Shown: positions 3,666 to 9,236 of the stretch, in pieces
Position numbering within the stretch: position 1 is the first letter of the stretch
How the letters are laid out: each line of letters begins with the position of its first letter
Source of the DNA: Sulfitobacter sp. DSM 110093
Lineage (GTDB): Bacteria; Pseudomonadota; Alphaproteobacteria; Rhodobacterales; Rhodobacteraceae
Length of the DNA: 64,000 nt
NCBI RefSeq assembly: GCF_022788715.1
Contig: NZ_CP085167.1
Location: forward strand, 1,423,001-1,487,000
Direction of reading: 5' to 3'
Program-made: the position numbers and the translations under genes
The notes under the pieces: generated by a model
Told to the model about the DNA's origin: nothing
Database searches by the model: none
Seen by the model: only the letters and a program-made list of their open reading frames with translations

Positions 3666-7891
<4,226 letters not shown>

Positions 7892-7919
7892 AACCTTATT
7901 GCGCTTTTTGTTCGCTAAT

Positions 7920-7934
7920 GTTCTCAGAAAGTTC
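7920..7934 (+). promoter_or_regulatory. LexA (SOS) box, GTTC-N7-GTTC
   Basis: GTTC-TCAGAAA-GTTC matches exactly the GTTC-N7-GTTC operator established for LexA in Rhodobacter and other Alphaproteobacteria. A third GTTC at 7910-7913 precedes it with a 6-base gap. The box lies 56 bases before the start of the small peptide gene at 7991, in the intergenic space after recG. LexA control of that peptide is inferred. Confidence 0.7.
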
Positions 7935-7990
7935 TTTACAGGTGAGGCTGAAAATGAGAACAAAGGAGCAACAAAGATAGGGAGGTACCG

Positions 7991-8119
7991 ATGATGACTT
8001 ACACTACGCTGAAATCTATCGCTCTTAGGTCACAGGCCACGTTGTTGCAGGATGCAGCAGGGGCCGCCGCTTTGATCGTGATGCTGGTCGTTGGTCTGCA
8101 TCTGCCCGCTTTTATCTGA
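7991..8119 (+). CDS. 42-residue single-span membrane peptide, probably SOS-induced
   Basis: Short gene of unknown function with a strong ribosome site (GGGAGG, 5 bases before ATG). The peptide has a polar N-terminal half (MMTYTTLKSIALRSQ) and one hydrophobic span (AAALIVMLVVGLHLP), suggesting an inner-membrane peptide with its N terminus in the cytoplasm. A LexA-type box lies 56 bases upstream and a terminator about 115 bases downstream, so it forms its own transcription unit. Caulobacter SidA (29 residues) is a LexA-controlled membrane peptide of similar design that blocks division. I see no sequence similarity strong enough to claim homology; the parallel is inference. ATG 7994 is an alternative start. 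Confidence 0.72.
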   Translation: MMTYTTLKSIALRSQATLLQDAAGAAALIVMLVVGLHLPAFI

Positions 8120-8233
8120 GTTCTGCCTAAGGCTCTCATGCCGCTTTGCCTGCATCCGTCCCAATTTGATGCACCGATTTGCCTGTCCGCATCGGCCTTT
8201 GGCAAAGTGGGTCCCACATGAGTTACGCCTACT
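8120..8233 (+). other. Structured 3' region with nested complementary segments
   Basis: Between the peptide stop and the terminator I see paired segments: CTCATG (8135-8140) with CATGAG (8217-8222), TTTGCC (8145-8150) with GGCAAA (8201-8206), and inside them GATGC (8168-8172) with GCATC (8189-8193), or alternatively CCGAT (8174-8178) with ATCGG (8191-8195). The nesting suggests a folded 3' untranslated region or a small RNA ending at the terminator. No open reading frame here looks real. Confidence 0.4.
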
Positions 8234-8272
8234 GACGCCGCCATCCCTTTTAGGATGTGCGGCGTTTTTTTT
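8234..8272 (+). terminator. Rho-independent terminator after the small peptide gene
   Basis: ACGCCGCCATCC pairs with GGATGTGCGGCGT (one bulge) around a CTTTTA loop and is followed by eight T residues. It is the strongest plus-strand terminator in this part of the window and closes the transcription unit of the 42-residue peptide. Confidence 0.9.
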
Positions 8273-8340
8273 GGCTTTGGGGGCTGAGGAAGGCCGCAGA
8301 GAGCCTGCAAGGGTAGGTTCGCAGCTGAGTGGCGCTCTAC

Positions 8341-8802
8341 TTAACGCTCGCCCGCTTCAACGGGGGCTACGGCCTGTTGCATCGCCTCGGTCAATGCTTC
8401 GATGCTGAGCATAATGGACGCGTGGCGGTTTTTATAAGCCGTGGCAGGGGTGAGCACTTCGAAACCGTCAAAGGGCGCGTCCGGCACGGGGCCTTCGCCT
8501 TTCAGCATGACGCGCAACTGATCGCGGGCTGTTGTGATCTGCGTAAATGAACTTCCGGGTGCCGCAGCGCCGACAACGGCGGCGGCAGCTTGGCCTAAAG
8601 CACAGGCTTTCACATCCTGCTTCATTTCGGCCAAATGCCCATCCTGCACGCGCACATCAACCGTCACGGTCGAGCCACAGAGCGGCGAGCGGCGTTTGAC
8701 GCTGGCCTGAGGGTCGTCCATGCGGCCCAGATGGGGGATCTCTGCTGCAAGCGCCAAGATACGCGCAGAGTAGAGCTTGATGAGGTCCGTCTCATCCGAC
8801 AT
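8341..8802 (-). CDS. NifU/IscU-like iron-sulfur scaffold-fold protein lacking one cysteine
   Basis: Protein of 153 residues with the IscU/NifU N-terminal fold. Two of the three scaffold cysteines are present, Cys42 in [11 protein letters not shown] and Cys67 in KACALGQAA. The third, normally in an HCS motif, reads RHAS here, so the cysteine is Ala128. It may be a specialised or degenerate cluster carrier, or a zinc or regulatory protein; true scaffold activity is doubtful. I chose ATG 8800-8802 because of the AAGGA ribosome site and because residues before it do not fit the family. It diverges from hisI. An upstream in-frame start would overlap hisI. Confidence 0.75.
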
Positions 8803-8876
8803 GGCTGTTCCTTTTCGTGCTGAAACCCTACATAAGCGCCGCTGACGCAGATGCAAATATTTCCACGAGGTGCCCG

Positions 8877-9236
8877 ATGACTTTTGATCCTGCAAGCCTT
8901 CAATTCAACGATGCGGGCCTGATCCCGGCGATTGCTCAGGACGCTCAGACCCATGAGGTGCTGATGCTGGCATGGATGAATGCGGAAAGCATCGCGCGCA
9001 CGTTGGAAACCTGCAAGGTGACTTACTGGAGCCGCTCACGGCAGGCGTTCTGGGTGAAGGGCGAAACCAGCGGGAACGTTCAGGAGCTCGTTGAGATGCG
9101 GTTGGATTGCGACCGTGATTGCTTGCTGGTCATGGTAAACCAAAGCGGGCCCGCCTGTCACACCGGGCGGCGCAGTTGTTTCTACACTGGTATTCAGGAT
9201 GGCCAAGAGGTCGAACTGATGAAGCCGATGGATTAA
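8877..9236 (+). CDS. hisI: Phosphoribosyl-AMP cyclohydrolase HisI
   Basis: Third enzyme of histidine synthesis, opening the purine ring of phosphoribosyl-AMP. The 119-residue monofunctional form has the magnesium triad Asp77, Asp79 and Asp81 in [10 protein letters not shown], and zinc cysteines including Cys94 and Cys101 in [12 protein letters not shown]. The start is ATG 8877 (MTFDPASL); an in-frame start at 8817 would lie in the divergent promoter region. No hisE is fused or adjacent, so histidine genes are dispersed here, as is common in Rhodobacterales. Confidence 0.96.

Follow-up and report, generated by a model that had tools for sequence, protein, structure and literature searches.

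Sulfitobacter sp. DSM 110093 carries, after its recG gene, a 42-codon open reading frame (ORF) preceded by an apparent LexA box. Is this ORF a real gene, is it controlled by LexA, and could its product act on cell division when DNA is damaged, as a preliminary description of the sequence had proposed? To address these questions we analyzed a 64,000-nucleotide stretch of this genome (the window) and compared the locus with its counterparts in related genomes. Its features are as follows.

5801-7891, forward strand: recG, a 696-aa ORF, the conserved upstream neighbor of the peptide gene
7910-7913, forward strand: extra upstream GTTC half-site, 6 nt 5' of the main box
7920-7934, forward strand: LexA box 1, GTTCTCAGAAAGTTC, an exact GTTC-N7-GTTC
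7935-7940, forward strand: TTTACA, a putative -35 element
7955-7972, forward strand: second, inverted LexA-like site, TGA followed by GAACAAAGGAGCAAC, of the form GAAC-N7-CAAC
7980-7985, forward strand: Shine-Dalgarno sequence GGGAGG, 5' of the ATG at 7991
7991-8119, forward strand: predicted membrane peptide gene of 42 codons, MMTYTTLKSIALRSQATLLQDAAGAAALIVMLVVGLHLPAFI, an ORF starting at ATG 7991
8234-8272, forward strand: intrinsic terminator by folding energy, with a hairpin at 8234-8266 and a T run to 8272

The recG locus and the limits of a single genome

The recG product displayed 40-84% identity to its counterparts in other alphaproteobacterial genomes among the matches listed. The sequence of the peptide was 100% identical in S. 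dubius, and the annotations of its relatives, where given, read 'hypothetical' or 'uncharacterized' protein. The preliminary description had the gene ended by a strong terminator. That element exists, its 61-nt stretch folding at -27.3 kcal/mol with none of 200 shuffles equally stable, but it starts 114 nt 3' of the peptide stop codon and hence outside the interval 7910-8119 to which it had been assigned; a strict terminator scan did not include the 8234-8272 hairpin among its calls. The 114 nt separating stop codon and terminator (8117-8233) could themselves pair into an extended, imperfect hairpin, the z value for 8117-8260 being -1.9. Since the next long downstream ORF (8341-8895) lies on the opposite strand, the peptide gene is probably transcribed alone, as one unit.

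Taken by itself, a lone GTTC-N7-GTTC box in this genome is at chance level. The window contained 2 matches compared to 1.75 expected, while the whole Sulfitobacter genome contained 96 compared to 194 for a reversed-pattern control, meaning that the box was rarer than the control. We inspected 50 of the 96 genome boxes, comprising the 30 first listed and 20 picked as A/T-rich or otherwise LexA-like; by a crude filter 24 of the 50 fell outside long frames, and 7 box-adjacent ORFs were scanned against Pfam. The majority of the 96 boxes are thus probably due to chance. The case for a regulatory switch upstream of the peptide gene therefore rests on comparison with relatives.

Conservation of the operator and the peptide in Rhodobacteraceae

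We compared upstream regions in two sets of orthologous loci, the first drawn from the better-scoring peptide matches, with weaker matches sampled by way of recG loci and the operator pattern. The first set (120 loci) gave 114 unique upstream regions, of which 112 had the exact box within 250 nt 5' of the start codon; in the enlarged set (200 loci) this was so for 169 of 173. The exceptions had lost one spacer base (L261), carried CTTC instead of GTTC (L268), displayed three GTTC at 6-nt spacing (L205) or lacked the box (L227). The ribosome site claimed for this gene recurred as well, with a Shine-Dalgarno-like tetramer within the last 18 nt before the start in 166 of the 173 unique loci, as did the placement after recG: in 150 of them a RecG-like C terminus lay no more than 400 nt 5' of the gene.

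A strict 53-bp pattern describing the compound operator was found in exactly one copy in 38 of 61 family genomes, and its reversed form, used as a control, gave 0 matches in the same 61. We fetched 20 of the 38 single-copy loci, and in each the operator was followed by a 38-47-aa ORF of the peptide type. Of the 23 genomes that the strict pattern missed, at least 7 (G001, G004, G018, G031, G044, G049 and G058) nevertheless have GTTC-N7-GTTC 5' of the peptide or after recG. We also inspected the region after recG in 25 family genomes where the peptide match was marginal or absent, 22 of which yielded a full-length RecG locus. In 18 of these 22 the box was followed by a diverged ORF of 31-45 residues with one hydrophobic span; the remaining 4 lacked the box, and one of them (G056) has operator and peptide on a different contig. 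In loci L334, L338 and L339 of genus g24 the peptide is cut to 31 residues with the operator kept, and in loci L326, L327 and L329 of genus g310 it is altered, again with the operator kept. The box lies 963 nt after recG in L338, its position being unchanged in the other g24 and g310 loci.

In other alphaproteobacterial families, no box was present within 400 nt of recG on either strand in 26 of 27 loci, the 27 being the top scorers among 177 genomes from outside the family that gave a match; the lone exception (L371) lies in GC-rich DNA and the other operator parts are absent. A translated search of 394 family genomes for the peptide detected it in 249 at E≤1e-3, the number rising to 285 at E≤0.01 and to 339 at a lenient threshold (E≤1), and a profile search of a draw of genomes from the order detected it in 262 of 292 at E≤0.1, with 14 of these above 1e-3. 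A class-wide search with a profile built from Rhodobacteraceae peptides gave matches in 33 of 385 genomes at E≤0.1, convincing only in 5 genomes of the same family; the 28 non-family matches had E values of 0.0018 or worse and spanned no more than 33 of the 42 positions, with 21 lying inside frames of more than 200 codons.

The ORF is really coding and under purifying selection: over 1828 pairs, restricted to peptides of the same length that shared 70% identity or more, mean pN was 0.16 and mean pS 0.64 (pN/pS 0.25). The preliminary description had staked its case in part on a conserved peptide and box in related genomes, and both were found. A chance box upstream of a spurious ORF, the reading to which the single-genome counts lend themselves, is contradicted by the fact that box, spacing and protein are all conserved in Rhodobacteraceae, and we find it hardly credible. 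An origin in a phage or other mobile element was also rejected, as no viral-contig relative was confirmed and none of three proteins matched PHROGs.

The peptide was not detected in the LexA-bearing family genomes G014, G015, G017, G090, G095 and G109. Three of 39 genomes had no LexA-domain match (G029, G059 and G033), and in these peptide and operator were also missing. G029 and G059 are 97% complete and likewise without a full-length RecG match, while G033 is 74% complete. Several SOS and repair parts (RecG, LexA, peptide and operator) may have been lost jointly in G029 and G059.

Anatomy of the compound operator and its assignment to LexA

We aligned 207 unique operators. The extra upstream GTTC half-site was present in the register of position 7910 in 175 of them, and box 1 was followed directly by TTTAC in 187 and by TTGAC in 6. 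A second site of the form GAAC-N7-NAAC was present in 202 of 207, a count that includes 20 loci fetched with a pattern containing it. Of these 202 sites, 193 lie at a distance of 23 nt from box 1, and in 193 operators TG stands three bases 5' of the site. Its sequence is GAAC-N7-CAAC in 181 of the 202 and exact GAAC-N7-GAAC in 9; since it is thus mostly a degenerate LexA site, binding of LexA there is something we infer. The promoter would consist of TTTACA as the -35 element, a 17-nt spacer and a TG-extended -10 element, although the hexamer at the putative -10 is a poor match and a sigma-70 scan called no promoter here. Box 1 would then abut the -35 element, and the inverted site would cover the -10 and start region. 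Comparison of these sequences has shown a conserved compound operator, made of the direct box, the usual half-site and the inverted site, which brackets the TTTAC...TG of the putative promoter. A single LexA box is the arrangement at ~97% of the SOS promoters of Caulobacter (PMC12700426, excerpts), which makes the doubled site unusual.

Within the second site a reading of the type 'MRTK.QQ' (ATG/GTG/TTG-AGA-ACA-AAx) recurs, and we considered whether it marks a conserved leader peptide. This was rejected, as differing frames and stops follow. Across 112 operators, moreover, the last base of its AGA and ACA codons is A in 98%. Conservation of that A despite free synonymous change at ACA, together with the differing frames, argues for a DNA element, namely the second LexA-like site.

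That boxes of this type belong to LexA is supported by their position at other SOS genes. Within the genus, GTTC-N7-GTTC lies ~48 nt 5' of the LexA-domain match in 15 of 17 lexA-type loci and ~134 nt 5' of the RecA-domain match in 15 of 16 recA loci; the loci without a box are L123, L137 and L164, two of which are on short contig ends. In the Sulfitobacter genome the same box type also precedes uvrA, uvrD, an SRAP gene and an mmcB-like gene. R. sphaeroides LexA may activate recA as well. Together with the description of GTTC-N7-GTTC as the alphaproteobacterial LexA site (PMC3323433, excerpts), sequence comparison indicates that LexA boxes in this clade are of this type. We also noted one LexA box at L169 in the Sulfitobacter genome (C1:1977500-1979700), with the SRAP-domain gene on one side and, on the other, a divergently oriented ORF of 244 aa that has no Pfam match and looks imuA-like by eye. 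At L165 and L058 the boxes GTTCGCATAAAGTTC and GTTCTGTGAAAGTTC lie 5' of an AAA-ATPase ORF and of an 86-aa ORF without a Pfam match, respectively, and these two ORFs are candidates for further SOS genes.

The operator could in principle be bound by a regulator other than LexA, placing the peptide gene outside SOS control. Its layout of three GTTC followed by GAAC-N7-CAAC is richer than the boxes of lexA and recA, and the N7 of the peptide-gene box (TYAAAAA) is unlike the N7 of either. Against these peculiarities stand the occurrence of the box type upstream of lexA, recA, uvrA and uvrD and the absence of peptide and operator from G029 and G059, which have no LexA-domain match, although full-length RecG is missing from these two genomes too. 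We judge control by another regulator to be very unlikely. The claim of LexA-type control made at the outset is instead strengthened, and on the strength of the conserved box and its occurrence at lexA, recA, uvrA and uvrD, the peptide gene is very likely under LexA-type (SOS) control.

An in-silico LexA scan of Dinoroseobacter shibae reported lexA, recA, dprA, pde2, flagellar, GTA and pilus promoters; the excerpts name no gene after recG, and the main text does not contain the word 'recG' (PMC6473078, excerpts). In a comparative study of the SOS response with R. sphaeroides and P. denitrificans among its species (PMC3323433), the excerpts mention no such peptide. A non-exhaustive search of titles and abstract starts of non-subscription papers returned nothing on this gene or its damage-induced expression, and the literature so found reports no SOS division inhibitor for Rhodobacteraceae.

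The peptide and its possible role in division

By eye, and as originally described, the 42-aa peptide is polar over its N-terminal half and has a single hydrophobic span. The 203 distinct peptides we collected are 31-47 residues long. In an alignment of 204 rows (the 203 peptides, with that of the window entered twice) the most conserved residues were D21 (203), G24 (202), L36 (197), P39 (194) and L28 (188). For 38 of the 203 peptides the ORF had been hand-picked after the box by its ribosome site and hydrophobic span; without these rows (n=166) the corresponding counts were 166 for D, 166 for G, 166 for L36, 165 for P39 and 161 for L28. The common motif, D-x2-G-x3-L...L-x-L-P, falls on one helix face, and conservation followed a helical periodicity of 100 degrees, with a shuffle p of 0.008 over residues 17-40 and of 0.018 over residues 19-39. 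This signal was absent from N-terminal residues 5-20 (p 0.16). The predicted fold is one continuous helix covering residues 2-41 (mean pLDDT 91.3, pTM 0.50). No peptide has K or R in its last six residues, and the mean net charge of the N part is +1.3, from which an N-in/C-out orientation is predicted. Together, these results suggest a predicted N-in/C-out membrane span with one face recognizing a partner.

Comparison with known families gave few leads. Scans of three proteins each against Pfam, NCBIfam and PADLOC returned no family above cut-off; one of three relatives gave a sub-threshold Pfam match to ThrE_2 (E 0.028) and the other two no match, and neither a LysM nor a SulA domain was found by Pfam in the three proteins. 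The PDB, queried by sequence and by fold, and viral folds yielded no match, a single helix being an uninformative query. No divisome gene was noted beside the peptide gene, and we found no sequence feature specific to division at the locus or in the peptide.

The case for a division step is inferred from analogues, namely SidA and DidA, YneA and Caulobacter ΔlexA cells, together with the operator, the predicted topology and the conserved helix face. SidA of Caulobacter crescentus is a 29-aa, SOS-induced protein that interacts with FtsW (PMC4211646, excerpts). Like SidA, the recG-linked peptide is alphaproteobacterial, has a GTTC-N7-GTTC box for LexA control and is a very short membrane peptide, as predicted here. 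It differs from SidA, which we compared by description, in its length of 31-47 aa, the D-x2-G-x3-L...LxLP motif, its location mostly after recG and the doubled operator. DidA of Caulobacter is likewise a small, single-span, damage-induced inhibitor of division; however, at 71 aa it is larger, and it is SOS-independent via DriD, whereas the recG-linked gene has LexA-type boxes (PMC4211646, excerpts). The damage-induced small membrane division blockers YneA (B. subtilis), ChiZ (M. tuberculosis) and SosA (S. aureus) are similar by description, yet a LysM domain is present in both YneA and ChiZ, and the helix of SosA is extended, while the recG-linked peptides have almost nothing beyond the span (PMC13396833, excerpts). 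As for targets, excerpts of the same sources place the action of SidA and DidA on FtsW/I/N (PMC4211646) and that of YneA on FtsW, with low-confidence models putting SidA, SosA and ChiZ at FtsW TM7 (PMC13396833). Caulobacter ΔlexA cells filament because sidA is expressed (PMC12700426, excerpts).

SOS-induced membrane peptides need not act on division. TisB and DinQ of E. coli also belong to this class, and DinQ, a 27-aa single-span SOS peptide, depolarizes the membrane (PMC3567139, excerpts). The SOS control, small size and single hydrophobic helix of the recG-linked peptide would suit a toxin of this kind, which would depolarize the membrane, lower ATP and impose dormancy after damage. However, TisB and DinQ are type I toxins with antisense RNAs, the dinQ locus being a type I toxin-antitoxin locus (PMC3567139, excerpts), and no such partner was seen at the recG-linked locus: no Rfam family exceeded threshold there (one sub-threshold match, E 0.75), and a sigma-70 scan of both strands of 7400-8700 gave no sigma-70-type site, although an uncharacterized antisense RNA could escape so light a probe. 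Moreover, the start region has little predicted structure (-1.8 kcal/mol), and a gene that is widespread in one family, mostly at one locus, and has a near-invariant D and G would be unlike the patchy toxin-antitoxin genes. We hold a TisB/DinQ-like toxin to be unlikely.

The same sequence evidence is also compatible with an SOS-controlled peptide that tunes another inner-membrane protein, such as a protease, a transporter or a respiratory or envelope-stress protein, leaving division not directly affected. The conserved helix face implies a specific partner but not its identity, and many small bacterial membrane proteins bind and tune inner-membrane partners. Arguing against this view, the damage-induced small membrane proteins so far investigated in several phyla block late division (PMC13396833, excerpts), and SulA, the sole other inhibitor family we looked for, gave no match in the Sulfitobacter genome in a search that recovered the E. 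coli control. A target other than division strikes us as rather unlikely.

By analogy, a SidA-like division block remains the best mechanism for the peptide. LexA would keep the promoter tightly closed, and the doubled operator fits a product that has to remain off. DNA damage would lead to RecA-stimulated self-cleavage of LexA, opening the promoter, and the 31-47-residue peptide would enter the inner membrane, its N terminus remaining cytoplasmic. Its conserved face (D21-G24-L28-L32-(35/36)-P39) may dock on a membrane-spanning helix in a protein of the late divisome, either FtsW or its partners FtsI and FtsN, so that septal wall synthesis would be delayed until repair was complete. Judged by the analogues, we lean slightly towards a Rhodobacteraceae-wide SOS gene, usually right after recG, that encodes a SidA-like peptide braking late division. 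The division checkpoint raised in the preliminary description is plausible, with the balance tipping neither way. The fullest form of this model, an undescribed Rhodobacteraceae division brake with two opposed LexA sites outconserving the peptide and an Asp-Gly helix face meeting the divisome, has in our estimate an even chance of being correct.

Rhodobacteraceae are among the common marine bacteria, and the peptide is a strong candidate for their missing division brake during DNA breakage. The locus illustrates that a gene of 40 codons that matches nothing in the profile libraries scanned can be a widespread member of a family's SOS regulon, and that searching for the operator first recovers diverged copies missed by a protein search. 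For the family itself, it offers a precise one-gene candidate for an SOS division inhibitor, with a conserved switch and defined residues to mutate.
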